Assembly: GCF_000330705.1 (NCBI RefSeq)
Contig: NZ_ANAM01000008.1
Location: 496,001-560,000, forward strand
Origin: Salinicoccus carnicancri Crm
GTDB taxonomy: Bacteria > Bacillota > Bacilli > Staphylococcales > Salinicoccaceae
Length of the DNA: 64,000 nt
Reading direction: 5' to 3'
This document shows, in pieces, positions 5,955 through 24,863 of the stretch (position 1 is the stretch's first letter; each line of letters opens with the position of its first letter). A program made the translations under genes and the position numbers. The notes under the pieces were generated by a model. The model searched no databases. It was not told the origin of the DNA and was given only the letters and a program-made list of their open reading frames with translations.

Positions 5955-5980
5955 AAAAAACAGAGGTACTAATGCCCCTG
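5955..5980 (-). terminator. Terminator of the coiled-coil gene
   Basis: CAGAGG (5961-5966) / CCCCTG (5975-5980), followed on the minus strand by TTTTTT. The loop sequence resembles that of the hairpin at 11288-11309. Confidence 0.65.
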
Positions 5981-6021
5981 CCTTTTATGTGAAATCTATA
6001 TAAACAGCGATATGTCAAAGT

Positions 6022-6633
6022 TTAGATAAATACTTTATGATCCCTTAAAATCTGCTGATCAAATATTTCTTTTAGATGAGGGTACAGCCCTCTCTTGCCT
6101 AAGTGATAAGATTTGTACCTAGGCTCTCCCTGTTTTACAATCTTGTAATCAAGCAAGATATTGTTACAGTAGCCAAATGCTTGATTTATTGTAGTAGCAT
6201 GATCCTTTAAATATTTACTGTCCTCTACTACTGTTGAGATTGAAACAGTTTTAGTAACTGCCTGCTCAGTTTCATTAAATACTTTTGTAGCCTCTTTATG
6301 CTTTTCAAATACTTTTGTAACTACATCCTCTATCTGCTTAATGCCTTTTGCTTTAAGTGTCTTACTCAACTCCTCAGCAAGTTTAAGATCTTGCTTAAGC
6401 TCCTCCTGATTCTTTGTGAGTTCCTTTAGAGCATCCATGCTTGTTACATCTGCCTTATTAGCCTCTACAGCCTCAATCTGTTCTGTAAGTGTTTCTAGCT
6501 CCTTATTATGCTCATCATTAATCTGTTCTACCTTTTCAATTACATTGTTTACCTCAGCTTTTACCTCTTTTAGGTCTTCTACTTTCTCATCTAATGCTAC
6601 CTTAGCCATTTCTACACTTGTTACTTTCTCCAT
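6022..6633 (-). CDS. Coiled-coil protein of the element
   Basis: A 203-residue protein whose residues ~10-125 form a long heptad-rich, highly charged coiled coil ('DEKVEDLKEVKAEVNNVIEK', 'LKQDLKLAEELSKTLKAKG'). The C-terminal 70 residues look globular and basic, ending 'LYPHLKEIFDQQILRDHKVF'. AAAGGAG lies 11 nt before the ATG. It starts 20 bp after the stop of the gene at 6654, so the two are probably one operon. I do not recognise a family; structural, partner-binding or DNA-organising roles are all possible. Confidence 0.7.
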   Translation of the reverse strand: MEKVTSVEMAKVALDEKVEDLKEVKAEVNNVIEKVEQINDEHNKELETLTEQIEAVEANKADVTSMDALKELTKNQEELKQDLKLAEELSKTLKAKGIKQIEDVVTKVFEKHKEATKVFNETEQAVTKTVSISTVVEDSKYLKDHATTINQAFGYCNNILLDYKIVKQGEPRYKSYHLGKRGLYPHLKEIFDQQILRDHKVFI

Positions 6634-6653
6634 TTAGTCATTTCTCCTTTTAT

Positions 6654-7658
6654 TTAGTCTTTGCTATTAGTCTCTGCTAACAACATTTTGCTTATTTCTT
6701 CTTGTGTATCTAGTATTACCTGCAGTTCTTTATCATGCTTGCTAACTCCTGCCTTAACCTCTACTGGATCAACCTCAGGTGTAGCAGTGGGCTTTAGTGC
6801 TGTGCCTCTATTTTTAACTATCTCTTTAGCCTCTTTTTTATCAAATACAACAGAAAGTTTCTTTACTAGCTCTGCATCTGATAGCTTAAGTCTTTCCTTT
6901 TTCTGTACATTCTTGCCCTTTGCATACAATCTAACTTCTCTTTTATTTAATGGTCTAGCTGTTCCTCTTTCTATCCTGTCCAATCTTAATGCCTCCTGCA
7001 TTAGCTTTAGATCCGGATGCTCTACCTGATTATATAAACTCATAAACAACATGCCATAATAAAGAGCCTCAAGCTTTAACCCCTCATCTGATATGGTTGT
7101 ATCTACAAACTTCTGTCTACTTCCCTTTGTTTCTACAGTACCTAAATCTAGCAGGGTACTTTCATTTAACATTACGCCTAGATCTCTTGTATCTAAGTAC
7201 TTGCTGATACTGCCTAACTCATTTTTAATAAACCATCTCAGAGATCTCTGTTTCATTGCTTGCAGATTCATAACCTCATTAGAGGACATCCCTGTAAAAT
7301 CTATGAGTAACTGCTGTTGTCTGACAGATGCATCAGGTCTAATCGCCTGCTCTATCAGATTCTGCACAAACTTATCAAGTTGCTCCTCAGTCATTGATCT
7401 GTTTAGACTTGTAGGATCATACTCAGGTGCTTTAATCTCCTCCTGTGTCTTTAACTCCTGATCATACAACTCTCTATGCTCTGATATGTATGTTCTTAAA
7501 AGTCTACTGGAGAAACCAAGCTCCTTGCTGTATGCCTCCTGTGTAGTGCCAAAATGCACCTTACAATAGGCATGTAAAAGAGCAGTCTGCTCTGATCCAG
7601 TGGGTTTATTTTCTTCTATAAACTCCTGAAACTCTGTTTTCTGTGTTTCCTCTGCCAT
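6654..7658 (-). CDS. Unknown protein with an N-terminal helix-turn-helix
   Basis: A 334-residue soluble protein. Residues ~30-60, 'HFGTTQEAYSKELGFSSRLL', read like a helix-turn-helix; the middle (90-230) is helical and the C-terminal part is lysine-rich ('GKNVQKKERLKLSDAEL') before an acidic tail. GAGGGGAAAG lies before the ATG at 7658. It is the first gene of the minus-strand cluster and faces away from the helicase-like gene, with a 306-bp shared control region. A role in replication or its control is plausible but unproven. Confidence 0.7.
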   Translation of the reverse strand: MAEETQKTEFQEFIEENKPTGSEQTALLHAYCKVHFGTTQEAYSKELGFSSRLLRTYISEHRELYDQELKTQEEIKAPEYDPTSLNRSMTEEQLDKFVQNLIEQAIRPDASVRQQQLLIDFTGMSSNEVMNLQAMKQRSLRWFIKNELGSISKYLDTRDLGVMLNESTLLDLGTVETKGSRQKFVDTTISDEGLKLEALYYGMLFMSLYNQVEHPDLKLMQEALRLDRIERGTARPLNKREVRLYAKGKNVQKKERLKLSDAELVKKLSVVFDKKEAKEIVKNRGTALKPTATPEVDPVEVKAGVSKHDKELQVILDTQEEISKMLLAETNSKD

Positions 7659-7964
7659 ACTATTACTTTCCCCTCTCTTAATCTCTGTATTATTCTCATT
7701 AATTGCCCCTGTTGCTACCTATTTCATTTCTCTACTATATAGGGCTACTAGATGAGGCTTATCCCAGTAGTTACTTAGGATAATATTACACTAACCTCTG
7801 TAGACTCTCTATTGATATCCTGATTAACTTCTGTCATATAAATCTCCTCCCTTTAGCTCTATATTTAGAAATGCTGTTTTAACTGTGACTGCCCTCATGT
7901 CACAGCTTTAAAAAGTCTCCTAACAATAATAATGAAAGATATTATATTTTAAGGAGACTACACA
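7659..7964. promoter_or_regulatory. Divergent control region inside the element
   Basis: This 306-bp gap separates two diverging transcription units. It is A+T-rich with several TATAAT-like and TTAACT-like words (for example ATTATATTTT just before the AAGGAG of the helicase gene). I see no convincing operator repeat and no small gene. Promoters for both directions must lie here. Confidence 0.5.
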
Positions 7965-9248
7965 TTGGAAAATAGAAATTTAAAGGTAAAAGTAATTGAT
8001 AGTATTATGGGATCAGGTAAAACTAGTTGGGCTATCCAGTATATGAATGGGTCTCATGAATCTGAGAAATTTATTTACATTACTCCATTTCTTAATGAGG
8101 TTGAAAGAGTCAAAAGAGAGGTAACAAATAAGGAGTTTGTAGAGCCTGAGAAATTTAAAGGCAAGAATAAGAGAGAACATTTTAAAACTCTACTTTCACA
8201 GGGCAAAAACATCTGTAGTACTCACGCTTTATTTAAAAAAGCAGATGAGGCTCTTATAGATTTAATTCAAGTTCAGGGCTATACCTTAATACTAGATGAG
8301 GTCATGAATGTAATTGAACAGGAGCCTATTACTAAAGAGGATTTACAGCACCTGACACAACCTAATCATAATGGGGAGCCATTACTGTATGTAAAACCTG
8401 ATGGTACTTGTAGATGGACTAAAAAGGACTATAAGGGTAGGTTTGAAAGCATCAAGGAGTTAGCAGAGAGCAATAATTTAATGATTCATAATAACACAGC
8501 TCTGTACTGGACTATGCCTGTAAGAGCATTTAGAGCTTTTGAGCAGGTTATTGTAATGACTTATATGTTTGATGGTCAGCTACAGAAATACTACTATGAC
8601 ATGCATGATGTGGATTACTACTACAAAGCTATTAAATTAGATCCTGAGGATAACAGATATAAACTAATCAATTATGTAGATCACACTGCAGAGGACAGGG
8701 AGCACCTGAGGGAGCTTATTAATATCCATTATTCAAAGTTAAATGATATTGGTAAAGGATACCACGCTTTCAGCTCTACTAAGTTAGATAAGTATGCTAA
8801 TGATTCTGCTTTTATTGAGCTTAAAGAGAGAGTTAAGAAAGATGCTTACAATTTTTACAGAAACAAAATAAAGGCATCTGCTAAAGATGTTATGTGGACT
8901 ACTATAAAGGGAGAGAATGATAGCATTAAAAAAGCTTTGGCACCTCATGGACTCACTAGAGAATACAATGAACAGCCTAATAAATTTGTGGAGGTCACAG
9001 CTAGGGCTACTAATGACTACAAGAATAAGACCACTTGCATTTATTTAGCTAACAGATACCTTAATCCAATGTTAAAGCAATTTGTAGAAGATGGAGGGGC
9101 TAAGGTAGATCAAGATAAATTTGCATTGTCTGAGTTATTACAATGGATTTTCAGGTCTAGAATTAGAGTAAATCAGCCCATTGATATTTATATTCCCTCT
9201 AGTAGAATGAGGAGACTGTTAGAGCAATATCTTAATAATGAAATATAA
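7965..9248 (+). CDS. SF2 helicase-like / origin-binding-type P-loop ATPase
   Basis: A 427-residue protein with a Walker A motif at the N-terminus, 'DSIMGSGKTSWAIQ' (residues 12-25), then 'YITPFLNEVERVK' (motif Ia-like), 'STHALF', and a Walker B/DExx-like 'LILDEVMNVIEQ' near residue 107. The C-terminal half has 'VTARATNDYKN' and 'LLQWIFRSRIR', compatible with helicase motifs V and VI. This layout resembles phage and plasmid origin-binding or DEAD-like helicases. The start is TTG at 7965, 8 nt after AAGGAG. It is the only large plus-strand gene in the element and is followed by 2.2 kb without genes, which could be its target. Replication is an inference. Confidence 0.75.
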   Translation: MENRNLKVKVIDSIMGSGKTSWAIQYMNGSHESEKFIYITPFLNEVERVKREVTNKEFVEPEKFKGKNKREHFKTLLSQGKNICSTHALFKKADEALIDLIQVQGYTLILDEVMNVIEQEPITKEDLQHLTQPNHNGEPLLYVKPDGTCRWTKKDYKGRFESIKELAESNNLMIHNNTALYWTMPVRAFRAFEQVIVMTYMFDGQLQKYYYDMHDVDYYYKAIKLDPEDNRYKLINYVDHTAEDREHLRELINIHYSKLNDIGKGYHAFSSTKLDKYANDSAFIELKERVKKDAYNFYRNKIKASAKDVMWTTIKGENDSIKKALAPHGLTREYNEQPNKFVEVTARATNDYKNKTTCIYLANRYLNPMLKQFVEDGGAKVDQDKFALSELLQWIFRSRIRVNQPIDIYIPSSRMRRLLEQYLNNEI

Positions 9249-11446
9249 ATGGATTATAATTAATATGATGCCTCTGCTGTGCACTACAGTAGGGGTATTA
9301 TTACAAATAGCTGAAACCCTTGATATAGCTGACTTACTCACTCCACTGAGTAAAACCTTTACAAAACCCTATAGTGGCGGGTCTTCAGACCCCCCTCCCT
9401 TATAATAACAGTATACAGACTGAGTAACTTTTTAGCAGTAAAGACAGCTATATATTCCAGTCGCTAAAGCTCCTTACATAGCTCAGGCATTACCTGCCCT
9501 CGCCCTACCCTCTTAATTAACTGCTGTAATATCTTCTACAATATAGGCAGGTTTATATTTAGGTGGGGGCATGAGCTTTAGCTCAGGCTAGGTTTTAGAT
9601 GCTCTTAGGTCTTTGCACTATAACAGTACCTCAGCAAATACTTTAATATCAGGTAGCTACTTAGCCTTAGAAGTATAATCCTTTATGCTATGTTTTTTGT
9701 GGTCTACTATGTAGACTGTTCTTTCTTCTTTTTTGTGTCACTACCTGTTATTTACTGCTTAGCTCTCAGTAATAGCAGGTACTTTTTTTATGTCTTCTAC
9801 TCCATACTGTAGTAAAGATCTGCTACTGTATTTTACATATAATTTAATATACTTATCTCCCTGTTAGTGCTGTTAATTCAGTTACTGGCAGGTTATTTTT
9901 GTATACTCTGTGAGGTTAGATATTACTACTACAGGTACTGCTAGTTACACAGGGGTTACTGAAATAAGGGGAGGGGGAGGTATATAACTGTAGGGCGATT
10001 GTGAGGAGCATTAGCTTACACAGTAGGTTACATTAGATTACATGGTAAACAGCCCAAGAAACATCAGGAGGGTCTGCCACTGCCATTAGTGAAATATTTC
10101 ATAGGTGTAGCTATTATGTAAAGAGTAAACGCTTGACACAATAATATTTATAGCATATTCCTGCCCCTGCTCCTGCAGTTTCCTTAAAGGAATACATAAG
10201 CCTGATATGATCTACAATATCATTCTGAGTCAGGTACAGTACTACTAATTAAAACCTAAGAGATATAAGGGCTGTAAGTGTTAGGGTATTATTTTGAAAA
10301 TAAAATGGCTGTAAGTACTGTTGTAGAGCCTTTTCTCATTTTGATATATAGGGCTATTAATTAAGGGGGAGGGGGCTAGGTAGGTACTGAGCAAGTACTG
10401 AGCAATCTCTTACTCTACAGCTAAGACACAAGGAGAGGGCTTATATATTGTGGGGCTACAGCAGGGACTGTAACTAACAGCAGGGCTAAGCTCCTGATAC
10501 ATCAGGCAGGTACTGGACTCACTGCAGAGCACTGTAGCTAACAGCAGGAGCTACTACTGTACTAATGAGAGGGCTAAAGCTATAGAAGTGTGTAGATATA
10601 TATATAGATATGAGCACTGCAATATACATAGATATTGTAGCTACCATTTTGAAACTAACTAATGAGACTTTACTAAGCTGATAGAATCAAGGCAGTAACT
10701 TAACTATCAATAACATTACTTATTGAGACAGTAAGAGTTCTGTACTAATCCAGTAACAGTAACAATAAAAATAATGATGATAAGTTAAGTTAGCTAAATG
10801 TAATAGTCTTTGCTCAGCTCTCTACTGATCTGCTAATACTTTTAATTAATTGATTGTAGACTAACAGAAATAATACTTGTGCAAGCTAATATAAGCTATT
10901 CTGACAAACTTTAATATAAATCTAACGCCTTTATATTAATCACTTTCAGATGCTCTAAATTAGCCTCACAGAACAGCCTCATATTGATACAGTTATAGTT
11001 ATCAGAGTAAAGATAGCATAATCTATCTAGCATGGGGGTATGGGAGGGGGCAGACCCTATATATAGGAGCATCTTGTGCTGAAATTATTTCTTTTCCATT
11101 TTTTACAGCTCCTGAGGAAACTAGAGCACCATAGAGCAAGTACTATAGACTAAGTAGCACTACAGAGCCTCACTAATATTATTGTAGATACACAGACCAC
11201 ATAGTGAGCCCCCCTTACTTAAACAGCCTTACTATAAAAAATATTTCTAAGTCCTAAAATTACAGATCAGCAGACAACATAAAAAAAGCAGAGACTATAA
11301 TGTCCCTGCTCTGATACTAAACTTATTCTAATTATTACATGTAAAATCTTATTATCTAATTTTTGGTATTACCAATGAAAATAGTGTGACTTCTATTAGA
11401 GTAGACACTTTAATAAGTATATTTCTATAATTCCTTAACAAAATTT
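9249..11446. other. 2.2-kb gene-free block of the element
   Basis: No credible reading frame on either strand; stops, especially TAG, are dense in all frames. Contents seen: hairpin GGGTCT/AGACCC (9379-9392), GTCTAC/GTAGAC near 9702-9716, TTCCTT/AAGGAA near 10180; plus-strand G-rich tracts at 9968-9980, 10365-10384 and 11034-11050; a tandem 11-mer GTACTGAGCAA (10384-10405); a repeat ACTGTARCTAACAGCAGG at 10467-10484 and 10531-10548; and a TA-rich stretch at 10594-10612. CG is nearly absent here too. Candidates: replication origin, a large structured RNA, or a decayed gene region. I cannot decide. Confidence 0.7.
11281..11309 (-). terminator. Terminator beyond the PIN gene
   Basis: GCAGAGAC (11288-11295) / GTCCCTGC (11302-11309), followed on the minus strand by seven T. 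It lies about 140 nt after the stop of the PIN gene. Confidence 0.7.
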
Positions 11447-11449
11447 ACT

Positions 11450-12802
11450 TTAAAATGGTAATCCATTATTTTTATAATAAATTTCCATTTCATTTATTAA
11501 CTCTAAAAGAATAATTGCTCTTTTAACTATATCTTCAGGTAATGAATTTAATTTTTCTAAGAATTTATTTGCTAAGTCAACATAACCCTCTATAGCAATG
11601 TCTGCAGACAAATCTTTAGCTGTTAGTTCTAGGTAAGGCATTACTCTATCAATAATCTGTAAAACTGCCTCATTATAATGATATATTTCATCATTATTAG
11701 CATGTAAAGCATTCTTTATTAGTACTTTACTTTGTTCTCTTTCATTTATTGGTAAAAACTCTAGTATTTCTTTTAATGATATATTTGACTTATCAATAAT
11801 ATTTCTATAATTTATATTGTCTAGATTTTTATACGCCTTGTTTTTAACAATCTTTTTATTATCTGCTTTTGTCTCTTCTGCTGTTCTAATGCTTTCTAAT
11901 TCAGCAGATACCTCGCTGAGCTGTGTCGCATTAAAATCTATACCTAAATATTTACTCGCATATTCTATAAAGCGTACTGTCTTATACATATGAAAATTTT
12001 GACCTGTTTCATTAAAAAATTCTTGAATTAGGTTAGGGTGAGGTCCTTTAGTCTCCCCTTTCTTAATATGCCACCAGTCCTCTTTATTATCTTCTGTAAT
12101 AAATATCACTGGTTTAGCATTTTCACACGCTTTAACTTTATCAATTATTTGTTTCCATACTATTAAATCGCCATATTGGAGTTGATACTTGATACCATCA
12201 TAAGACCTATACTCTTTTTTATCAGTTTTATCTTTAAAACCAGGAGGGACTTTAAGAGGATACCTTTCTCTCCCATCTTCCTCAATTTTATTTATCTCAT
12301 CTTGATTATATGACTCTCCAACATTATTATTCAATAATTCTAATATCCTGTCATGTATTTCATTTGAGTTAGGTAAATCATTTATTTCTTCTTCTACTTT
12401 TTCTTCTAACTCTTTATTAGATTCATCTAAATTTTTAATAAAAAAATTAAAATCCTCAGTCCTAATAAAAGGATTATCATCTTGAGCATTTTGTAAAAAA
12501 GATTTCGCCTCATCTATTAGACCTTTCAAATTTTTTTCTATTTTTTCATATCCCTCTTTTTGATTATACATGTTATCCTCATAGTTAAAGAAATACTCTA
12601 GGGCAACTTGATGCGGTATCCATAATCTATTTTTTTCTTTGAATTTTTGTAAAATTTCTAATAGTCGCCCTGCACTCTGTTTTGAGGGATATTTATAAAA
12701 ATATAATAAAATATTTGTATCCACCACTATAATTGATTCATCCAACAAGTCCTCATATTCTTTTTTTGTATATTTAATAAATCCTTTAAATTGTTCTAAC
12801 AT
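11450..12802 (-). CDS. PIN-like domain protein (PIN_8/DUF4935 type), putative defence effector
   Basis: A 450-residue protein with an N-terminal PIN-like nuclease domain: 'SIIVVDTNILLYFYKYP' carries the first catalytic aspartate, an all-helical insert follows, and 'PVIFITEDNKEDWWHIKKG' (residues ~215-235) supplies the late acidic residues. The C-terminal ~180 residues are helical and unassigned. ATG 12802 is preceded by AGGGGG; an in-frame ATG at 12820 overlaps nothing useful. PIN domains cut RNA, and this large type is found in phage-defence islands. It starts 20 bp after the DUF4145 gene ends, so the two are one operon. The pair is more A+T-rich yet richer in CG than the rest of the element. 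Confidence 0.8.
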   Translation of the reverse strand: MLEQFKGFIKYTKKEYEDLLDESIIVVDTNILLYFYKYPSKQSAGRLLEILQKFKEKNRLWIPHQVALEYFFNYEDNMYNQKEGYEKIEKNLKGLIDEAKSFLQNAQDDNPFIRTEDFNFFIKNLDESNKELEEKVEEEINDLPNSNEIHDRILELLNNNVGESYNQDEINKIEEDGRERYPLKVPPGFKDKTDKKEYRSYDGIKYQLQYGDLIVWKQIIDKVKACENAKPVIFITEDNKEDWWHIKKGETKGPHPNLIQEFFNETGQNFHMYKTVRFIEYASKYLGIDFNATQLSEVSAELESIRTAEETKADNKKIVKNKAYKNLDNINYRNIIDKSNISLKEILEFLPINEREQSKVLIKNALHANNDEIYHYNEAVLQIIDRVMPYLELTAKDLSADIAIEGYVDLANKFLEKLNSLPEDIVKRAIILLELINEMEIYYKNNGLPF

Positions 12803-12822
12803 TTTAAGCCCCCTAAACATTT

Positions 12823-13497
12823 TTAATTTTTCATTTCATCTCTATATTTCTGTGATTTTATTTTCATAGCAATAAAATAGACAGTAAGATCTATCAGATT
12901 TTTTAGATCATTAATGTCTGTCCCCTCCCATTTTCTTGTATAATGAGTTTCATCATTCCCCAACCATGTAGCTCTTTCTGCCATTTGTTGTATATCTGAA
13001 TCACTTATATAATCATTTATACATTTTTGAATTGAATGAATTGCTTTAACAGTTTCTGCATCCTCAGGATGTTCACTTATTATGTAATCTTTTAATAAAA
13101 ATTCTAGAGATTTCCTATAAGCACCTCCACAAATAAGATTAAGTTCCGCTTGTTCTGCATTAAATGCTTGATTATATATCTTTATAAATTCTGGAGATAA
13201 CTCATTAATTTCTTTAGGAAATTCTTCATAACTTTTACTCTGGGGGTAAAGATATGATAATTTAAATTTATTAGTATCGCCTGGTTGTCTTATGGTACTC
13301 ATAGTATACACAGCAAAAAATAGTGATTCACATTCTCCATTTGGACATTTACATAAAAGCTCATGAAATCTATACTGTTTTTCATGTATAAGAATATATT
13401 TAGGTATTATTAAATTCTTACACAAGGGGCATTTATCAGGTTTTTTTTCCAAGTAATTTAAATTTTTACTATCCTCAATCTGTCTAATGTATCCCAT
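12823..13497 (-). CDS. DUF4145-type protein with zinc ribbon, putative partner of the PIN protein
   Basis: A 224-residue protein. The N-terminus has paired cysteines 'CPLCKNL' and 'CKCPNGEC', a likely zinc ribbon. The C-terminal ~120 residues match the DUF4145 pattern: 'AEQAELNLICGGAYRKSLEF', 'AIHSIQKCINDYI', then 'ATWLGNDETHYTRKW' and a final helix 'DLTVYFIAMKIK'. DUF4145 proteins are common in restriction and abortive-infection loci and are related to HEPN-like helical folds. It is the first gene of the two-gene operon with the PIN protein and has its own promoter region at 13498-13560. A sensor or RNA-binding role is inference. Confidence 0.75.
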   Translation of the reverse strand: MGYIRQIEDSKNLNYLEKKPDKCPLCKNLIIPKYILIHEKQYRFHELLCKCPNGECESLFFAVYTMSTIRQPGDTNKFKLSYLYPQSKSYEEFPKEINELSPEFIKIYNQAFNAEQAELNLICGGAYRKSLEFLLKDYIISEHPEDAETVKAIHSIQKCINDYISDSDIQQMAERATWLGNDETHYTRKWEGTDINDLKNLIDLTVYFIAMKIKSQKYRDEMKN

Positions 13498-13560
13498 TTA
13501 ATAGCACATATCCTTTCATTCACAAAATCAGAATCATCATACAAATTATACCATATAAAA

Positions 13561-13587
13561 AAGAGCAGTATTCTGTTACCTGCTCTT
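13561..13587 (-). terminator. Terminator between the unknown genes and the DUF4145/PIN operon
   Basis: AAGAGCAG (13561-13568) / CTGCTCTT (13580-13587), followed on the minus strand by TTTT. It ends the transcript of the genes at 13650-14570. Confidence 0.7.
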
Positions 13588-13649
13588 AATTAACTAAACA
13601 ATTATAAGTATTTTCAGTAAATCTAACAATAATATTTCAATTGCATCAC

Positions 13650-14033
13650 TTAATATCTTTGATATAAGTAACTGTGCACGCTGTATAATACTGGTTTAAC
13701 CCTTGATTTTTCATTCTTAAATTGTATACTTTGCTTATAATATTCATTGTAAAAAGTTGATTCAGTATTAGCTACATCCATGACAAAATACATCTCAATA
13801 GGCTCTAGCTCAAAAGCATCTGATATTTTCAGCCCATTTCTTAAAGCTCTTTGATAACTATTTTTATCTATATTCCCTGATAAGCCATTAAAAATATCTC
13901 CATCTAACTTTAAATAAGAGCCTTTAATCAAACTACTTTTAAGTGTATTCCTAAACTCTGTGAAATCATTACCTGATTTAAGAGAATCAGTTTTAAACCT
14001 ATAGCCCTGTAATTTCAAATTTTTCATTGCCAT
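13650..14033 (-). CDS. Unknown 127-residue protein of the element
   Basis: A basic, soluble protein, 'MAMKNLKLQGYRFKTDSLKS...', with a middle segment 'YQRALRNGLKISDAFELEPI' that may be a helix-turn-helix-like turn, and a C-terminus rich in tyrosine ('VLYSVHSYLYQRY'). AGAGGGG lies before the ATG. It follows the gene at 14095 by 61 bp on the same strand and precedes a terminator, so these are probably cotranscribed. I recognise no family. Confidence 0.6.
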   Translation of the reverse strand: MAMKNLKLQGYRFKTDSLKSGNDFTEFRNTLKSSLIKGSYLKLDGDIFNGLSGNIDKNSYQRALRNGLKISDAFELEPIEMYFVMDVANTESTFYNEYYKQSIQFKNEKSRVKPVLYSVHSYLYQRY

Positions 14034-14094
14034 GTATCCCCTCTACTTTTTTCAATAACTAAATGTAATTCTTTGATCTAGTCATTTAACAATA

Positions 14095-14466
14095 TTATAC
14101 CTCTACTGCTCCAAATAAATTTAAATTTTTTTGTAACTCTCTCCCCCACTTATGCCAATCTACAAACTGTTCTAATTCATATACAAGTTCTAGGCTAAAA
14201 CTCCCCATATCAGCAACAGCTCCATCTTTCTGATCTTTGTAATACTGATAAGCTACTTCTGATAATTCAGTAATTCCTTGATATAGAATAAACTGATCAT
14301 TTGTTACAATTTCTAATGTCTCACTAATTTTATAGTTACCACTATCAAGAATAGCATTAATAAACAATAATTCATGATCTGTAAACTCTTTACTTCTAAA
14401 CTTTCTAACTTTAGAATTAGCTATTTCTTTTTTCAGTTCAGTGTAATCTGTTTTGTTATTAGTCAT
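14095..14466 (-). CDS. Unknown 123-residue acidic protein of the element
   Basis: An acidic helical protein, 'MTNNKTDYTELKKEIANSKV...', with 'ELEQFVDWHKWGRELQKNL' near the C-terminus. Its start codon lies 2 nt after the stop of the 33-residue membrane peptide, with AAAGGGAG before it, so translation is probably coupled. No motif is recognised. Part of the small-gene cluster downstream of the resolvase. Confidence 0.6.
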   Translation of the reverse strand: MTNNKTDYTELKKEIANSKVRKFRSKEFTDHELLFINAILDSGNYKISETLEIVTNDQFILYQGITELSEVAYQYYKDQKDGAVADMGSFSLELVYELEQFVDWHKWGRELQKNLNLFGAVEV

Positions 14467-14468
14467 GT

Positions 14469-14570
14469 TTAAATTCTCCCTTTAATAAATGTACTTTCTA
14501 ATAGGTTCATAAGTATTAAAGCAGGTGCTGAGGCTATGAATGTAAGTATTACAAGATTATCTATATCCAT
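14469..14570 (-). CDS. 33-residue hydrophobic peptide overlapping the resolvase end
   Basis: The frame encodes MDIDNLVILTFIASAPALIL and then 'MNLLESTFIKGRI', one clear membrane helix (residues 5-24). A very strong AGGGGGGAGG ribosome site sits 8 nt before its ATG, inside the last codons of the resolvase gene. Stop and next start are 2 nt apart. The size and layout recall small toxic or regulatory membrane peptides, but no antitoxin is evident. Confidence 0.5.
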   Translation of the reverse strand: MDIDNLVILTFIASAPALILMNLLESTFIKGRI

Positions 14571-15141
14571 TTAAACAGCCTCCCCCCTCAGTCTTTAGCT
14601 TTCTGTATATGGTAGCCCTTGAAATTCCAGTAATATCTGAGATCTGTTTTACTGTATGCTCTCCCTTGCTGTACAGTTCCAAAGCATGAGCCACTTTATT
14701 ACTATTAGCTCTAGGTCTGCCAAACTGCACTCCTTTAGACTGAGCTACAGCTACACCCTCCTTAACTCTCTGATGTATCTGTTTTCTCTCCATCTCAGCA
14801 AGTGCTCCCATAACTGTAAGTAGAAAATCTGACATTATGCTCTCTCCTGAAATATCTAACCATGAATCAGAGAGAGACTTAAGGGAGGCATCTTTATTCT
14901 TAATGATCTCCACTATCTCTAGCAAGTCCTTTGTAGATCTACTGAGCCTATCAATGCTAACAATATATACAGTGTCTCCCTCTTGTAGCTGATCTAGTAG
15001 CTCATTGAGCTGAGGTCTATCCCTCTTACTACCTGAGATCCTGTCTCTGTAAATGTAATCACAGTGCTCTAGTTGTTGCTCCTGCCTATCAAACTTTTGC
15101 GACTCATTGAGGGTACTGATTCTCATGTAGCCATAGTTCAT
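14557..15141 (-). CDS. Small serine recombinase (resolvase/invertase family)
   Basis: A 194-residue recombinase of the Tn3-resolvase/Hin family. The catalytic serine is in 'MNYGYMRIST' (Ser9); 'VSIDRLSRSTKDL' holds the conserved arginines; 'GALAEMERKQIHQRVKEGV' is the long E helix; the C-terminal 'HTVKQISDITGISRATIYR' is the DNA-binding HTH. Full length. It is the second serine recombinase of the element and is too small to be the integrase. Likely roles are dimer resolution, or inversion of a segment, but no pair of inverted sites was spotted. Confidence 0.92.
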   Translation of the reverse strand: MNYGYMRISTLNESQKFDRQEQQLEHCDYIYRDRISGSKRDRPQLNELLDQLQEGDTVYIVSIDRLSRSTKDLLEIVEIIKNKDASLKSLSDSWLDISGESIMSDFLLTVMGALAEMERKQIHQRVKEGVAVAQSKGVQFGRPRANSNKVAHALELYSKGEHTVKQISDITGISRATIYRKLKTEGGGCLNGYR

Positions 15142-15269
15142 ATTTTGTTATCTCCTTTCATTAGTAGTATCATTTTGATACCTGTATAAGTAATATACCA
15201 CTGTGAAATACTGGTATCAATATAATACCACTATATATTTTGGAGATTTTACACTTTGGTAAAAAATAA

Positions 15270-15296
15270 AAAAGACAGGGCTGTTTAGCCCTGCCT
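15270..15296 (-). terminator. Terminator of the winged-helix gene
   Basis: AGACAGGGCT / AGCCCTGCCT with loop GTTT (15273-15296), followed on the minus strand by TTTTTT. Confidence 0.8.
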
Positions 15297-15315
15297 AATC
15301 TACAATAACTATATA

Positions 15316-15591
15316 TTAATATCTATTATCTTTTCTAAACTCATCAGGTATATTCAACCTATACTCAGATGGTAAGCCCTTGTTTAGTTTAATCTCTAGT
15401 ATTCCTAATTTTTCTAGTTCTTGCATCCCTCTACTTGTGGTAGTCTTAGCCATTCCTAGCCTGTCCTTTAAGTCATTAAATGAGGTCTGTACTTCTCCTG
15501 TATCCTCTGAAAGGCTGTACATTCCTAAGAATAGCCTTAGTGTAGATGGTTTCAATTTTATCAGTAAATTATATAAGGTTACTTTGTCCAT
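15316..15591 (-). CDS. Winged-helix DNA-binding protein
   Basis: A 91-residue protein of winged-helix type: 'LRLFLGMYSLSEDTGEVQTS', recognition helix 'DRLGMAKTTTSRGMQELEKL', then a wing 'GILEIKLNKGLPSEYRLNIP'. This resembles the small MarR/RepL-like regulators of phages and plasmids. It lies between the two recombinase genes on the same strand, with its own terminator. Possible roles are repressor of the element or recombination directionality factor for the integrase; the latter is worth testing because no other candidate sits next to the integrase. Confidence 0.7.
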   Translation of the reverse strand: MDKVTLYNLLIKLKPSTLRLFLGMYSLSEDTGEVQTSFNDLKDRLGMAKTTTSRGMQELEKLGILEIKLNKGLPSEYRLNIPDEFRKDNRY

Positions 15592-15906
15592 TCCCTACAT
15601 ACCTCTCCCATGTCTCTCTACATCATTCTCATTTATTAAATCAACATAATTATATCACAGATTAAAAAGAGGCTACAGCCTTAGCCATAGCCTCAAATGA
15701 GAATAAATAAACTATCATTAGAGAGGAAAAGTATTAAAGTATGATGCTGTTGTAGGTGTATCTAGTACTATAGTTAGAATAACAACCCTAACTGTGACAG
15801 AGGCTGTTAGATACTGTTTAGATGCTGTGAGTGCCATTTAAAGAGGAGTTAACTACTTGATATGAGTGACTTACCCAGTTATAACTCTCTATGTGTCTCT
15901 GTGTAG
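15592..15906. other. Gap downstream of the integrase gene
   Basis: 315 bp without a gene. It contains the integrase terminator (15664-15694) and presumably the promoter of the winged-helix gene. Nothing else stands out. Confidence 0.5.
15664..15694 (-). terminator. Terminator of the integrase gene
   Basis: GAGGCTA / TAGCCTC stem (15669-15694), followed on the minus strand by TTTTT. Confidence 0.7.
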
Positions 15907-17433
15907 CTACTCAGCCCATGTTATTGTCAGTGTAGGCTTTACTTTCTGCCCTTGCTCATCTTTCTGATACTCTACTTTAGATATAATGCTCTTTAGGAAG
16001 TTATTTATATTTGTGACCAACTCTTTTTTATCCTTATCTGTTAAATCAGCATCCTCTTTAATCTGTTTAGATGTTCTAATATTTTTGATGTTATCTACAA
16101 GGTATTTAATTCTCTGTTCATAAGTGGAGGTATCTAAGTTTATAAGACTCTCCTTATAACTCTCTACTACATCTTTTAAGTGATCTTTCTCCTCTTCTAT
16201 ACCCTGCTGTCTCTCCTTAAAGGTGTTTTTATCTATCAATCCATCTACAGCCAAAGAAAGTAGATTTTCCTTTTTATCCTCTAGCTTTGCTAAAGATTTC
16301 TCAGCATCTTTAATTTTATCATGATACTTTTTAACAATAGTTGTATTGTCATGGGTCTTTATCTTAGACAGTTCTTTCTCTACTTCCACACTGTACTTCT
16401 TAATTTCTTCTAGTATAGCCTTTTCTAATTTTTCCAAAGAGTGCCCATAGTTTTTACAACTTTTATTAGTACATTTCTTTAATATATTCGCTACCCTGTA
16501 CTCTCCTGTCTCTTTGTAATTCTTATACTTAGGGTTAGCTGTAGAATTAACTAGCATCCTATTACTGCATTTAGTACATATAAATAGCCCTGAGGTTATA
16601 AAGCTAGTAGTAGATCTAGTTCTATTGTAACTCTTAGTCCTCTGCTGTACTAAATCTGAGATAAGCTGATACTCTGATACCTTAATTAGAGGCTCATGAG
16701 CATCCTTAACCTCTACAGATCCCTGTGCATTTTTGTAGTTAAGGATGCCCCTATACACAGGATTATTAATCATTCTAGAAACTGAGTTCATTCTAAAGAG
16801 CCTGTGATCTCTAGTCCTGTAGCCCTCTGCATTTAATTTCTTGCAAGCTGATGGATAGCTCATGCCTTGTAGCATCAAATCTACAGCATACCTATACACC
16901 TTGCTCTCCTCCTCATCAGGAGTAAGCCTGCCCTCTGAGTCTCTGATGTACCCATAAGGTGTAGGATTGCCTTGCCACTTACCTGCTCTAGCACTATTTA
17001 ACTTTCCTACTAATAATCTCTTTCTGATCTGCCTGTACTCAGCATCTGCAATAACTGAGCCAAAGGAAAATAACAGCTTATTGTTATCCTCTCTCAGATC
17101 ATACTCTGCAGTAGGAGTAATGAATATAGGGCAGTGCATCTCTAAGGTCTCTGCCAATGCCATTAAAGTAGCTCCTGACCTACTGAGCCTATCAATATCA
17201 TGAGCAAATACTGCATCATACTCTCCTGCTTTAATATCCTTAAGCATAATATTGTACTGCTCTCTATCTGAGTCCATTGAGGATGCTATGCCATCACTGT
17301 ATATCACATAGCTATAGCCCTGACTTTCAGCGATTCCCATTAAAGTAGTCCTGTGATTACTTAAGCTATCCTCATCCTCCCCTTTCTCTCTACTGAGCCT
17401 CAGATAAATACATGCTTTTTTACTGTTATCCAC
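15907..17433 (-). CDS. Large serine recombinase, integrase of the element
   Basis: A 508-residue phage/ICE-type large serine integrase. Resolvase domain: 'ACIYLRLSREKGEDEDS' with catalytic Ser14, 'FAHDIDRLSRSGATLM', 'SFGSVIADAEYRQIRKRL'. Recombinase domain: 'PYGYIRDSEGRLTPDEEE' and 'RMNSVSRMINNPVYRGI'. A zinc ribbon has 'CTKCSNRM' and 'KKCTNKSCKNYGH', and a long coiled coil follows (residues ~365-470). The start is GTG at 17433, 7 nt after GGAGG; the ATG at 17466 lies upstream of that ribosome site. It ends at the right side of the element, next to the attachment site in yjbQ, and explains the insertion. Confidence 0.95.
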   Translation of the reverse strand: MDNSKKACIYLRLSREKGEDEDSLSNHRTTLMGIAESQGYSYVIYSDGIASSMDSDREQYNIMLKDIKAGEYDAVFAHDIDRLSRSGATLMALAETLEMHCPIFITPTAEYDLREDNNKLLFSFGSVIADAEYRQIRKRLLVGKLNSARAGKWQGNPTPYGYIRDSEGRLTPDEEESKVYRYAVDLMLQGMSYPSACKKLNAEGYRTRDHRLFRMNSVSRMINNPVYRGILNYKNAQGSVEVKDAHEPLIKVSEYQLISDLVQQRTKSYNRTRSTTSFITSGLFICTKCSNRMLVNSTANPKYKNYKETGEYRVANILKKCTNKSCKNYGHSLEKLEKAILEEIKKYSVEVEKELSKIKTHDNTTIVKKYHDKIKDAEKSLAKLEDKKENLLSLAVDGLIDKNTFKERQQGIEEEKDHLKDVVESYKESLINLDTSTYEQRIKYLVDNIKNIRTSKQIKEDADLTDKDKKELVTNINNFLKSIISKVEYQKDEQGQKVKPTLTITWAE

Positions 17434-17509
17434 TCTGCAAACCTCCAATAATAGTACTCTAAACACAGCTACCTCTAGTGCTCAGTACTATCATTAGAGA
17501 TAACTGTAT

Positions 17510-17653
17510 TTATGTGACTACTACTGTATGCGGTGTGAAGACAACCACCACACCGCCTTTCAGCTTGGATTCCGCGAGCGCTTCCCGCACAAGTGAATCG
17601 ATGTTGACGAAAGTCTCCCGCCGGTCGGTTTCCACTTCATACTTGAATAGCAT
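17510..17653 (-). pseudogene. yjbQ: yjbQ, 5' part, cut off by the mobile element
   Basis: Starts with ATG at 17653 behind an AAAGGTGA ribosome site and encodes MLFKYEVETDRRETFVNIDS through '...VVVVFTPHT' (43 residues), then four residues from the element (VVVT) and a TAA. The intact family is about 130-140 residues; adding the ~90 residues at 4338-4612 gives ~132. The promoter remains here, so a short dead-end peptide is expected while the element is present. Confidence 0.9.
17526..17529. other. Right attachment junction
   Basis: Element side GACTACTACT then GTAT then host GCGGTGTGAAG. Joining the element sides predicts a circular attP core of GACTACTACTGTATCAGATG on the plus strand. The integrase gene begins about 90 bp away. 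Confidence 0.85.
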
Positions 17654-18794: not shown

Positions 18795-18851
18795 TAAAAA
18801 AAGCCCCTGCCTGAAATTATTAAGAGGTCGGGTGCATTTCTTAGGCAGGGG
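18795..18851 (-). terminator. Long-loop terminator of the secreted peptide gene
   Basis: CCCCTGCCT (18804-18812) / AGGCAGGGG (18843-18851) enclosing 30 nt, followed on the minus strand by seven T. Confidence 0.75.
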
Positions 18852-18896
18852 TAAATCCAATTAAGGGTAAGGAAAAAATGAACTTACTATAAGTTG

Positions 18897-19073
18897 CTAA
18901 TAAACATCGATGGGGCGGAGTCTACCATCAGACATGTAAGGACCGCCGCTGGTAACAGTAAAGACCGGCTCATCCGACTTAACAGTACTCGCTTCTACTG
19001 TTTCCGGACTGCTGAAAGTCACTGCACCGAAAAGCATCAGGCCCAAAATCATTACGCTGACAAGTTTTTTCAT
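18897..19073 (-). CDS. Small secreted peptide precursor, candidate signal of the adjacent regulator
   Basis: A 58-residue precursor: MKKLVSVMILGLMLFGAVTF is a signal peptide with a probable cut after 'VEA' (near residue 28). The exported part is about 30 residues and ends 'YMSDGRLRPIDVY'. A GGTGGTG ribosome site precedes ATG 19073. It is divergent from a PlcR/Rgg-like regulator 103 bp away. That is the usual layout of peptide/RRNPP signalling pairs (PlcR-PapR, NprR-NprX), where a C-terminal piece is re-imported and bound by the TPR domain. That the peptide is the ligand is inference from position, size and secretion signal. Confidence 0.65.
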   Translation of the reverse strand: MKKLVSVMILGLMLFGAVTFSSPETVEASTVKSDEPVFTVTSGGPYMSDGRLRPIDVY

Positions 19074-19095
19074 CCCATTCACCACCAATCAATGT

Positions 19096-19159
19096 CTATA
19101 ATCACATTATGTAGTATTCTAAATATTTAATCAATATTCACATATGCAAAAATTGTGAA
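19096..19159. promoter_or_regulatory. Divergent control region of the peptide/regulator pair
   Basis: On the minus strand TTGATT (revcomp of 19127-19132), 17 bp and CATAAT form a plausible promoter for the peptide gene. The inverted repeat TTCACA (19137-19142)-N11-TGTGAA (19154-19159) lies upstream of both genes, just before the regulator's ribosome site, and is a likely operator. The centre TATGCAAAAAT half-matches a PlcR box. Confidence 0.55.
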
Positions 19160-19176
19160 CAAACTGGAGGATATTT

Positions 19177-20076
19177 ATGGAGTATTATGAGCAATTCAAG
19201 AAAATACGGCAGCTGAAAGGATTAACCCATAAAGATCTTGCTGAAGGCATATGTGGCATGACGACAATCTACCGCTTCGAGCGTGGCGATACTGCCATCA
19301 CTGCTGAAGTACTGTATCAGTTATGCCAGCGGCTCGGCATCAGCATGCAGACTTTATTCGTCGATGAGGATTCAGAATATGCCTTCATTGACTATTATTT
19401 GGAGAAACTGCGTGAATACGTCTACTTCCGGCACCCCGATATGCTGAAGATGACTTTAAAAGATGCAGAAGAGACGATAAACAATAATCCGTCTTTTGAT
19501 TTGAAATATAATAATTTCGACAGGCTTTTCAGAACATACTCCGCCATCGTATTAAAAAATGAAGAACGGTATGATCAGGCAGAGAAGATCCTGGTTGAAC
19601 TGATGAAAAATAAGAAAAACAAGTCGGATCTCGAGCTTGAAATCATCAATACGCTCGGTGACCTGTACATCACCCAGGACAAATATGGGGAAGCACTTGA
19701 ACTGTACACACGCCACAGGACACGCATTCTGGCACATGAAGACAGCCATTATTTTGACCATTATATGCTGATCCAGCTGTATTATGGTTACGCAAACAGT
19801 CTTTACAGCAATTTCAGGGATGTCCAGGCTCTCGATATCTGCTTTAAGCTGCTCATCCGGATTCAGGAACACAATACGATGTACTATCTGGGGAAGACGC
19901 ATTATCTCATGTGCCTTATTTATCTTGCTTTAAATGATGGTGAAAACGCTGAGGAACATTTTAAAAAAGCGGAATCCGCTTTTCATCTCGAGGAAATCAG
20001 AGACAGAATGGAAGATCATCTCACTGCAGCAAAAAGAGAAATAAAGTCGTTAAAGAAAAGCGAAAACAGCCTGTAA
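19177..20076 (+). CDS. RRNPP-type HTH/TPR peptide-sensing regulator
   Basis: A 299-residue cytoplasmic regulator. The N-terminal XRE-type HTH covers residues ~5-62 ('IRQLKGLTHKDLAEGICGMT', 'IYRFERGDTAITAEVLYQLC'). The rest is a run of tetratricopeptide-like helices ('YDQAEKILVELMKN', 'TLGDLYITQDKYGEALELY', 'YLMCLIYLALNDGENAEEHF'). Domain order and size match PlcR, NprR and Rgg. CTGGAGG sits 7 nt before the ATG. The divergent gene encodes a small secreted peptide, the probable ligand. An ordered hairpin at the stop ends transcription. Confidence 0.85.
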   Translation: MEYYEQFKKIRQLKGLTHKDLAEGICGMTTIYRFERGDTAITAEVLYQLCQRLGISMQTLFVDEDSEYAFIDYYLEKLREYVYFRHPDMLKMTLKDAEETINNNPSFDLKYNNFDRLFRTYSAIVLKNEERYDQAEKILVELMKNKKNKSDLELEIINTLGDLYITQDKYGEALELYTRHRTRILAHEDSHYFDHYMLIQLYYGYANSLYSNFRDVQALDICFKLLIRIQEHNTMYYLGKTHYLMCLIYLALNDGENAEEHFKKAESAFHLEEIRDRMEDHLTAAKREIKSLKKSENSL

Positions 20077-22107: not shown

Positions 22108-23586
22108 TTAGAGCATGCGTTTCATTTCTTCAGCCACATGTTCAACTTCCGTACCTACAACAACCTGAACGTTGTTTTTGCCCGGCTTGACCACACCATG
22201 GGCACCTGAAGTCTTAATCTGGCCTTCGTCGATCTTAGAGTCATCGTGGACATTTATCCTCAGCCTTGTCGTGCAGTAATCCACCGTGTCGATGTTCTCC
22301 TTGCCGCCGAGTCCGATGAGGATCTTGTCAGCCTGCTGTGAATACCTGTCGTCGGGCTTACCGTCTGAGATGCTTTCAGATGCGCTGTCATCAGAAACGG
22401 TGGAGGCACCGTCTTCAGCCAGTACAGACGCGTCACGCCCCGGTGTCTTGAGGTCGAGCATCGTGATGATCGCCCTGAAAATCACATAGTACAGGACGAA
22501 GAACACAAGCCCCTGCACGATGAGCATGTACGGCTGATTAGCGATCGGCACCTGCGTGCTCAGCACAAAGTCTATCAGACCGGCGCTGAAACCGAAACCT
22601 GCCGTCCATTCGAACAATGCTGCAACGAACATGGACAGTCCTGTCAGGAATGCATGGACAATATAGAGCAGCGGAGCGAGGAACATGAATGAGAATTCCA
22701 TCGGCTCGGTCACACCCGTAAGGAATGCTGTCAGGGCAGTTGCCAGAAGGACCGATCCTGCCGCTTTCTTATATTTCGTTTTTGCTGTGTGATACATTGC
22801 AAGTGCCGCACCCGGCAGACCGAACATCATGATTGGGAAGAAACCGGCCTGATAGCGTCCGGTTATGCCCTGCTCACCTTCGCTTGCCCAGAAGTTTCCG
22901 ATATCATTGATCCCAACAGTATCGAACCAGAACACTGAGTTGAGTGCATGGTGCAGTCCCGTCGGAATGAGGAGCCTGTTGAAAAATCCGTAGATGCCGG
23001 CACCGACCGCCCCGAGGCCGCTGATCCACTCACCGAAGTTGAAGAGCAGATTATACAGCAGCGGCCAGGCGACATAGAGGATGCCTGTGACCGCAAGCAT
23101 GACGAATACCGCAATGATTGGCACTGCGCGCCTGCCGCTGAAGAAAGCAAGGTACGGCGGCAGTTTCGTTTCACTGAACCGGTTGTAGAGTGCAGCACTT
23201 ATCAGACCGGTGACGATACCGATCAGAACGTTGTTTTCGATGACGCCGAATGCCTCACCGACCTCTTCGGCCGGCACTCCCTGCAGAAGTGCCACAGATT
23301 CCGCATTCAGAAGATTTGTGACTACCAGGAATGAGACCAGCCCTGTAATTGCCGCGGCGCCGTTCTTATCCTTGGACATGCCGAAGGCAAGCCCCACTGA
23401 AAAGATGATTGCAAGATGGTCGAATATGGATCTGCCGGCATTGATGAAGAATCCGGCGATGACACTCTCGCCGCCCCATCCAGTCGGGTCGATGGCATAT
23501 CCGATACCGAGCAGCAGTGCTGCGGCCGGCAGCACCGACACAGGGAGCATGAATGATCTCCCCATATTTTGAACATAGCGTAACAT
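22108..23586 (-). CDS. nagE: PTS N-acetylglucosamine (glucose-family) transporter EIICB
   Basis: A 492-residue membrane permease that phosphorylates the sugar during uptake. The EIIC domain (residues ~1-390) has the glucose-family membrane segments with 'NRLLIPTGLHHALNSVFWFD', 'GFFPIMMFGLPGAALAMYH' and the substrate motif 'LTGVTEPMEFSFMFLAP'. A low-complexity linker follows, then an EIIB domain with the phosphocysteine in 'VDYCTTRLRINV'. There is no EIIA domain, so a separate EIIA is needed. The divergent neighbour is nagA and a CRE site lies between them, which favours N-acetylglucosamine over glucose. Confidence 0.88.
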   Translation of the reverse strand: MLRYVQNMGRSFMLPVSVLPAAALLLGIGYAIDPTGWGGESVIAGFFINAGRSIFDHLAIIFSVGLAFGMSKDKNGAAAITGLVSFLVVTNLLNAESVALLQGVPAEEVGEAFGVIENNVLIGIVTGLISAALYNRFSETKLPPYLAFFSGRRAVPIIAVFVMLAVTGILYVAWPLLYNLLFNFGEWISGLGAVGAGIYGFFNRLLIPTGLHHALNSVFWFDTVGINDIGNFWASEGEQGITGRYQAGFFPIMMFGLPGAALAMYHTAKTKYKKAAGSVLLATALTAFLTGVTEPMEFSFMFLAPLLYIVHAFLTGLSMFVAALFEWTAGFGFSAGLIDFVLSTQVPIANQPYMLIVQGLVFFVLYYVIFRAIITMLDLKTPGRDASVLAEDGASTVSDDSASESISDGKPDDRYSQQADKILIGLGGKENIDTVDYCTTRLRINVHDDSKIDEGQIKTSGAHGVVKPGKNNVQVVVGTEVEHVAEEMKRML

Positions 23587-23617
23587 ATTTTTTCCTCCCT
23601 TTTTACCCTTTAATATA

Positions 23618-23631
23618 TGTTATCGCTTACA
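23618..23631. promoter_or_regulatory. Catabolite-responsive element (CcpA site)
   Basis: TGTTATCGCTTACA fits the CRE consensus TGWNANCGNTNWCA at every position. It lies 31 bp upstream of nagE on the minus strand and about 90 bp before nagA, so CcpA could repress both. Confidence 0.85.
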
Positions 23632-23723
23632 ATATAGCATATTTTGTCATATCTTTGATATACTATTTTTACCCACGCTTAAAGTTTTATGATAAATTAT
23701 ATTTTTTACAAGGAAGCGATCTG

Positions 23724-24863
23724 ATGAAATTACTTATAAAAAATGCGCATATTGTCACCCATGAGAAAGTTCATGAGAATCATTGGCTGCTTACAGAAAA
23801 CGGAAAAATCCATTCTTTCGGACCGATGGAAAACTGCCCGGAAGCTGACAACACAATAGATGCTGAACACAGCTACCTCCTGCCCGGCGCCATCGAGATG
23901 CATATCCACGGTGCAGACGGCGTTGATGCGATGGATGCAGACATGGAATATATCGAGAAGATTTCCGCCCACCTGCCGAAGACCGGATCCACATCGTTCC
24001 TTGCGACGACTATGACATCAACGATCGAGGATGTCGAACGGTCGCTCATGAACCTTGCGGATTACACCTATCAGTCCGGTGCCGAAATGCTCGGCATCCA
24101 CCAGGAGGGCCCCTTCATATCCAAAAAGCACCCCGGCGCGCAGCATCCGGACCATATCATTACACCTGATGCAAAGATGATCCGCCGTCTCCAGGATATT
24201 TCCGGCAACAGGATCCGGCAGATCACGTTCGCACCGGAGGAGGATGAAAACGGCATATTCCTCGAGACTCTCAAGGAACTCGGCATCATTGCGTCCGCCG
24301 GCCACACCGATGCGCTGTATGAAACACTCACTGAGGCTGAAAAAAATGGCGTGAGCCATGTCACCCACCTGTATAACGGCATGCGCGGCCTCCACCACCG
24401 TGAGCCCGGCGTCGTCGGGTTCGCCTATATGTCCGATGCCTTCGTTGAAATCATCTCCGACGGCATCCATTCACGTCCCGCAATGGTGAAACTTGCCTAC
24501 GACAACATCACTTCCGACCGGATGATCATGATCACCGATGCGATGCGTGCCCAGGGCCTGCCCGACGGCCGATATGACCTCGGCGGCCAGGAAGTCATTG
24601 TAGTGGGCAATGAAGCCCGTCTTGCCGACGGAACGCTTGCCGGCAGTGTGCTGACAATGGATCAGGCAGTGAGGAATATGTTCGCCTTCACCGGCTGCAG
24701 CTGGCCGGATATCGTGAAGATGTCATCCTACAATCCGGCAAGGGAACTCGGCATCACTGATCAGAAAGGCGTCATAAAAGAGGGCGCGGATGCGGATCTC
24801 GTCCTGTACGACGGGGAAGCCGACCTGATGCTTACAATCGTCAGAGGCAAAGTATTTTCATAG
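23724..24863 (+). CDS. nagA: N-acetylglucosamine-6-phosphate deacetylase
   Basis: A 379-residue cytoplasmic amidohydrolase that removes acetate from GlcNAc-6-phosphate made by the EIICB transporter. Seen: 'GAIEMHIHGADGVDAMD' (metal histidines), 'GIHQEGPFISKKHPGAQ', 'ASAGHTDALYETL', 'VTHLYNGMRGLHHREPG' and the catalytic aspartate in 'MIMITDAMRAQG'. Start ATG 23724 behind AAGGAAG; the open frame extends much further upstream into nagE but without a start site. NagB, the next enzyme, is at 39736-40458. Confidence 0.95.
   Translation: MKLLIKNAHIVTHEKVHENHWLLTENGKIHSFGPMENCPEADNTIDAEHSYLLPGAIEMHIHGADGVDAMDADMEYIEKISAHLPKTGSTSFLATTMTSTIEDVERSLMNLADYTYQSGAEMLGIHQEGPFISKKHPGAQHPDHIITPDAKMIRRLQDISGNRIRQITFAPEEDENGIFLETLKELGIIASAGHTDALYETLTEAEKNGVSHVTHLYNGMRGLHHREPGVVGFAYMSDAFVEIISDGIHSRPAMVKLAYDNITSDRMIMITDAMRAQGLPDGRYDLGGQEVIVVGNEARLADGTLAGSVLTMDQAVRNMFAFTGCSWPDIVKMSSYNPARELGITDQKGVIKEGADADLVLYDGEADLMLTIVRGKVFS

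Follow-up and report, generated by a model that had tools for sequence, protein, structure and literature searches.

A conserved peptide-regulator locus of Salinicoccus suggests a cell-to-cell signalling switch that acts partly through a regulatory RNA in Staphylococcus relatives in which agr was not found

The divergent gene pair analyzed here raises the question whether a small exported peptide and an HTH-TPR regulator form a signal-receptor system in Salinicoccus, and what such a system would control. The known quorum system of the staphylococcal order is agr. A search for AgrB that finds the protein in 97 of 157 genomes of the order detected it in none of the 12 Salinicoccus genomes, and the genus therefore appears to be without agr and to have this circuit instead. 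Most of the remaining genomes in the family are without AgrB as well, so that the loss of agr does not have to be cause or consequence of this circuit. The DNA under study is a stretch of 64,000 nt (the window) from the 2.67-Mb genome of Salinicoccus carnicancri Crm, and the comparison set comprised the 12 Salinicoccus genomes, including S. halodurans, S. sediminis and a stercoripullorum MAG, and 145 other genomes of the order.

The preliminary description had proposed a small gene, a regulator gene and a palindrome, and all of them are found in place: the gene of a 58-aa propeptide (18897..19073, minus strand, stop included), the gene of an HTH-TPR regulator (19177..20076, plus strand), and between them the predicted inverted repeat TTCACA-N11-TGTGAA at 19137-19159, a strandless putative operator (TTCACATATGCAAAAATTGTGAA). 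The two genes are present, adjacent and divergent in 12/12 Salinicoccus genomes, with about 100 bp between the peptide ORF and the regulator, and no orthologous regulator lacks its peptide gene, which means that the arrangement of peptide, regulator and palindrome is not due to chance. Throughout the genus, the locus is flanked by a Nudix gene on one side and an iron-type alcohol dehydrogenase (ADH) gene on the other, with a GNAT gene in most genomes, and this common neighborhood indicates that it belongs to the core chromosome and not to a mobile island. The locus thus is real, conserved and functionally coherent.

Two other regions of the window may be mentioned. At 4611-17524, an element of about 13 kb interrupts a yjbQ-type gene, whose ortholog in L002 is a single frame of 166 aa; here, residues 1-77 are encoded at 17755-17525 and residues 77-166 at 4610-4341. 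Besides several proteins that have no match in Pfam, the element encodes a large serine recombinase (15907-17466), a resolvase (14557-15141) and a PIN_8 protein (11453-12820); the seven proteins scanned with PADLOC gave marginal matches only. At 22108-24863, a PTS-type permease gene (22108-23586, minus strand) and a nagA-like deacetylase gene (23553-24863, plus strand) overlap in their start regions, with identities assigned from sequence only.

The small gene encodes MKKLVSVMILGLMLFGAVTFSSPETVEASTVKSDEPVFTVTSGGPYMSDGRLRPIDVY, for which a signal peptide and about 30 exported residues ending with GRLRPIDVY had been anticipated. Inspection agrees with this: residues 1-28 (18990..19073, minus strand) form a Sec-type leader with a predicted cleavage site between VEA and S, read by eye according to the AxA rule, which would leave 30 exported residues, and the signal-peptidase site [VAT]EA followed by S is, again by inspection, retained in 12/12 Salinicoccus genomes. 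With this leader, the peptide falls outside the leaderless communication peptide (LCP) class. Within the exported part, conservation is confined to the tail DGRLRPIDVY (18900..18929, minus strand), the candidate mature pheromone region and best-conserved part of the protein, with the consensus Y[ML][SP]DGR[PL][RA]PI[DGN]VY in the 12 genomes. Mean pairwise identity is 81% in the last 12 residues, 60% in the signal sequence and 47% in the middle of the propeptide, and conservation is hence not a matter of the signal sequence only. The peptide had also been regarded as unlike PapR, and it indeed ends with PI[DGN]VY in 12/12 genomes and not with LPFEF. In the codon alignment, identity amounts to 78% at second and 60% at third positions, which argues for selection at the protein level, and a GGTGG-type RBS precedes the ORF.

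The regulator, expected to be an HTH-TPR protein of PlcR/Rgg size, has 299 aa and contains TPR repeats and an HTH_3 domain, the latter at residues 8-59 (E 1e-10), and its closest relative by sequence and fold is PlcR, which makes it a PlcR-like receptor candidate. Among solved proteins, PlcR is the sole full-length match (phmmer E 7.9e-5, residues 6-275), and PlcR-PapR structures are the two top-ranked matches of the Foldseek search (E about 1e-5, TM about 0.55), with ComR and Rap structures also among the top fold matches. These fold ranks are supportive and not conclusive, since the AlphaFold model is helical and TPR-like with a moderate mean pLDDT of 68 and a poor HTH (below 50). In the alignment with PlcR, the invariant receptor residue N158 is matched with N159 of PlcR and G204 with N201, and we take both PlcR residues to be peptide-touching positions. 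PlcR binds its ligand through contacts with TPR helices 5 and 7 (PMC6568020). The Pfam model RNPP_C (PF18768), which serves detection and does not define the family, has no match in the own genome. The locus has the RRNPP(A) architecture, i.e. a receptor within the range of 250-500 aa that has its HTH at the N-terminus and its TPR repeats at the C-terminus, an adjacent small propeptide gene with leader, and sequence and fold similarity to a proven member. Orthologs with 59-85% identity exist in 12/12 Salinicoccus genomes, none of the 145 remaining genomes of the order has a match to the regulator at E <= 1e-10, and the regulators found in a plasmid and phage search are all distant. The own genome encodes a second HTH protein at C1:351652-352167 (L052; 324-aa open frame) with HTH-level similarity to the regulator; as similarly weak matches of comparable frame length span most of the family, this type of protein probably is a separate core regulator.

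The most conserved part of the transcription unit lies behind the peptide ORF. The 3' UTR has 85% identity and is thus more conserved than the coding sequence, the third codon positions of which have 60%; immediately behind the terminator, identity drops to 35%. Directly 3' of the stop codon, RNA element 1 (AGTAAGTTCATTTTTTCCTTACCCTTAATTGGA; 18856..18888, minus strand) is invariant over 33 nt in 12/12 Salinicoccus genomes except for a T5/T6 run, and it occurs once per genome. It is followed by an intrinsic terminator hairpin (18796..18851, minus strand; arms 18804-18812 and 18843-18851, then a U run; z-score -2.6), the loop of which contains RNA element 2 (AATGCACCCGACCTCTTAA; 18820..18838, minus strand). 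These 19 nt are identical in 12/12 genomes while the surrounding stem changes, and three stem pairs show two-sided compensatory changes over the 12 genomes (C-G/T-A twice, T-A/C-G once). A covariance model finds one match per Salinicoccus genome (12/12), only at this locus, and nothing convincing in the 145 other genomes, where two matches in another family, both near E = 1, do not exceed chance expectation. The Rfam search of the locus gave at best chance matches far below gathering scores, and no UTR match was found on plasmids. A coding role of the UTR is excluded on either strand, as the one-base T5/T6 indel and the changes in loop length break any frame; an MNLL-type mini-ORF on the plus strand is not kept among relatives. 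An sRNA on the plus strand was likewise rejected, as the U run follows the hairpin only on the minus strand in 12/12 genomes. From the position and the minus-strand terminator we infer that ORF and UTR are co-transcribed. A conserved ORF and a conserved RNA structure are thus combined as in dual-function RNAs, and the UTR has the appearance of a C-rich sRNA joined to the mRNA of the pheromone. C-rich unpaired blocks are typical of Gram-positive sRNAs that cover Shine-Dalgarno regions, and the reverse complement of element 1 resembles an idealized initiation region (AAGGGTAAGGAAAAAATG).

Candidate targets were sought with RNAduplex over 2702 called genes, with shuffled controls. For element 1, no target rises above these controls (422 below -16 kcal/mol versus 278-576 in shuffles); for element 2, the numbers (215 versus 33-160 in shuffles) amount to a general SD-like excess, as any anti-SD-like C-rich motif could give. 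The best contiguous pairing is seen with two leaders, that of an NRAMP-like transporter gene, an mntH candidate (AGGGGTGAGGAAGAAATG), and that of the first gene of oppDFBCA (GTAAGGAAAGAATGGGT), neither of which is clearly beyond the shuffle extremes. A complete oppDFBCA operon is located at C1:629093-635333 of the own genome, and oppD is conserved in 12/12 genomes. The 16-mer upstream of oppD is identical, at the orthologous position, in the two nearest relatives (G029 and G032), and no such site within one mismatch was found in the other nine Salinicoccus genomes. A match to a fumarase-like gene in five genomes was dropped, as it lies inside the coding sequence in the own genome. The predicted pairing of the oppDFBCA leader (GAGTAAGGAAAGAATG) involves the conserved RNA block in the mRNA of the pheromone. 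RNA targeting of the permease that would import the signal is attractive as an idea.

How does the conserved UTR relate to the peptide and regulator? We lean towards a composite mechanism, in which a PlcR/PapR-like loop would activate a dual-function pheromone-sRNA transcript. All evidence for the pair would hold equally for plain PlcR/PapR-like quorum sensing, with the 3' UTR being only a terminator, stability or processing element and no RNA acting in trans, and the lack of an element 1 target above shuffled controls is in line with this simpler explanation. We nevertheless consider it rather unlikely, because element 1 lies outside the terminator and has stayed invariant over its whole length when the third positions of the ORF have drifted, because a mere terminator needs neither this block nor an invariant loop on a stem that is re-paired, and because a receptor with one operator would have almost no output besides its own locus.

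This latter point is based on the distribution of the operator. The full 23-bp sequence occurs once in the own genome, even with up to 3 mismatches allowed; the one other exact pair of half-sites (C1:94055) falls within a coding gene, and two one-mismatch sites were checked for their genomic context. The regulator therefore probably controls little beyond the locus. The operator block CAATATTCACATATGCAAAAATTGTGAACA is identical in 11/12 genomes and has diverged only in G031. A near half-match to the PlcR box (TATGNAAN4TTNCATA) exists in the window. The operator was nevertheless not accepted as a PlcR box, since the TATG part is lost in G031, where a palindrome of the TTCACA/TGTGAA type is kept. 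On the peptide strand, the operator is followed by 2 bp, TTGATT, 17 bp, CATAAT and the RBS, and the hexamers with their spacing, kept in relatives with small changes, constitute the predicted promoter of the peptide and sRNA (19106..19134, minus strand). This prediction combines a consensus scan with conservation, the scan alone being not above chance.

The position of the palindrome bears on the sign of control. A divergent layout with a single shared operator is common for repressors, and a peptide-bound repressor would be conserved as well, so that the regulator might instead repress the peptide/sRNA promoter until relieved by the peptide, as in PrgX- or Rgg3-like systems. Such a circuit, which would differ from the activating loop solely in the sign of control, appears unlikely to us: the palindrome adjoins the conserved -35 of the peptide promoter on its upstream side and overlaps neither -35 nor -10, a placement next to and not over the promoter that fits an activator, and PlcR, the closest relative, is an activator.

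Whether the peptide is the ligand of the regulator can be judged from natural variation, and co-variation of the peptide tail with TPR residues had been named as a check beforehand. The result is positive and concerns receptor residues 141-220 of the TPR domain (19597..19836, plus strand), a putative peptide-specificity segment, in which receptor changes accumulate only in the two pairs of close relatives whose peptides switch between G and N at the third-last residue. The receptors of G030 and G028 are 95% identical, their peptides end with PIGVY and PINVY, and 12 of the 14 receptor differences are in 141-220 (Fisher p 5.6e-6). In G027 and G023, which show the same G/N switch in the peptide, 15 of 26 differences are in this segment and 11 outside (p 8e-4; 290 columns tested), and four pairs with the same peptide have no excess of receptor changes there. 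Eight changed columns are common to both switched pairs (hypergeometric p 3.8e-6), and columns 165, 166, 170, 207 and 212 split N-type from G-type receptors against the tree, compared with 0-2 separating columns for other non-tree pairings. These p-values overstate independence, as the co-variation may stem from one or two, possibly shared, exchange events. Synonymous sites in 141-220 are raised, too, and the peptide codon shows the same two-base change in both pairs. We read this as a local exchange of the specificity segment together with the peptide residue. The co-variation supports a cognate receptor-ligand relationship, and that the peptide and the regulator are a cognate signal-receptor pair is, all in all, highly probable. 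The two peptide types with the localized receptor exchange represent a natural experiment on pheromone specificity.

This leaves little room for an effector function, in which the exported peptide would be bacteriocin-like or an envelope peptide and the regulator would sense another cue. The peptide is small and single-copy, which an effector could be as well, and its binding to the receptor is deduced indirectly, so the idea deserves mention. It is nevertheless improbable, given that tail identity tracks the receptor segment in two pairs, that the tail is the only conserved exported part, and that no effector, immunity or export gene was found among the genes flanking the pair. That the ORF is spurious and the transcript an sRNA gene only is hardly credible: the UTR is the most conserved DNA of the locus, but the ORF is kept in 12/12 genomes with its codon structure, leader and cleavage site, RBS and conserved tail.

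For the composite mechanism, from secretion, import and binding of the peptide to activation (and not repression) and to the function and targets of the sRNA, we infer the following course. The propeptide would be exported by Sec and cut after VEA, and a C-terminal fragment within DGRLRPIDVY, probably of 5-10 residues, would be re-imported by an oligopeptide permease and bind to the divergent regulator in its TPR groove. With the peptide bound, the regulator would then bind the palindrome beside the -35 box of the peptide promoter and activate transcription, which would result in a positive loop, and it may repress its own gene, as the palindrome sits just upstream of the regulator RBS. The induced transcript would consist of the ORF, followed by the conserved 3' UTR with two C-rich single-stranded blocks and the structured terminator, and the 3' UTR would act on other mRNAs by base-pairing near ribosome-binding sites. 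Given that the genome has only this one operator, the main output likely is the RNA together with the peptide, which would follow the logic of agr-RNAIII.

The strongest version of this mechanism, in which a genus without detectable agr would use a single-operator receptor and a dual-function pheromone mRNA as signal source as well as main output, as an independent counterpart of agr-RNAIII with specificity segment and tail co-exchanged between species, is tentative, and as a whole we rate it at slightly less than an even chance. A core PlcR-like pair in a genus without detectable AgrB would show that the slot of peptide signalling has been refilled by a different receptor class, and the RNA domain on the pheromone mRNA, if true, links RRNPP signalling directly to riboregulation. 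We think that the conserved RNA 3' UTR and the absence of agr, both missed by the preliminary description, are the most interesting parts of the system.

How does the locus compare with known systems? The pair had been suggested to be new. RRNPP pairs as such are known, however, and it is for the regulatory-RNA domain on the pheromone mRNA that no precedent was found: our literature search gave no paper on such a combination, and we know of no RRNPP system with a conserved regulatory-RNA domain on its pheromone mRNA. In a census of RRNPPA systems, Staphylococcus contributes under 0.05% of the RRNPPA-encoding Bacilli genomes, though it represents 19% of Bacilli genomes (PMC9765709). The RRNPP_detector publication (PMC10075063) reports some Staphylococcaceae candidates, and the bare pair may have been listed earlier in its supplements. 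RRNPPA receptors with adjacent leaderless peptides of the SIP/RopB class have been reported in Staphylococcaceae (PMC10518010); unlike these, the Salinicoccus peptide has a leader.

Alkalihalophilus pseudofirmus and Niallia taxi have plasmid-borne PlcR-like regulators, which are 25-27% identical to the Salinicoccus regulator and likewise have a small leader-bearing ORF divergently upstream, and as even these distant Bacillaceae plasmid regulators have divergent leader peptides, this layout probably is wider. These ORFs (L210:1121-1234 and L211:1182-1310, both minus strand) end with LDLPYIHT and TLDLPNQH, respectively, tails that differ from the Salinicoccus tail and resemble the DLPFEF of PapR. 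The small ORF of Alkalihalophilus is near a gene annotated as TOMM leader-binding protein.

With PlcR-PapR itself, the Salinicoccus system has in common an HTH and TPR receptor with full-length sequence similarity and the best fold match, a propeptide of about 50 aa with a Sec leader, from the C-terminus of which the ligand would come, and close relatives with different tails (pherotypes). It differs in that the peptide gene is divergent from the receptor gene with one operator between them, the tail is RPI[DGN]VY instead of the LPFEF of PapR, the PlcR box is not the conserved part, a single operator stands against the broad regulon of PlcR, and the pheromone mRNA carries a conserved RNA element. 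As neither a conserved PlcR box nor a PapR tail was found, the system is not filed as PlcR.

The comparison with agr-RNAIII of Staphylococcus concerns the circuit as a whole, as both are peptide signal circuits and the output would in both cases be an RNA that also encodes a peptide. The Salinicoccus receptor is, however, a cytoplasmic TPR protein instead of the AgrCA two-component system, its peptide is linear and of Sec type instead of an AgrB-made thiolactone, and its RNA encodes the signal itself, whereas RNAIII encodes delta-haemolysin. Psm-mec RNA and other dual-function RNAs combine a short ORF and a regulatory RNA in one transcript (PMC9266662). Salinicoccus differs from these in that the product of the ORF is a putative pheromone and that a conserved 3' UTR, which ends in the terminator and has a candidate function, forms the RNA part. 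The Salinicoccus system thus would resemble PlcR-PapR in its receptor and, provided that the RNA arm exists, agr-RNAIII in its output.
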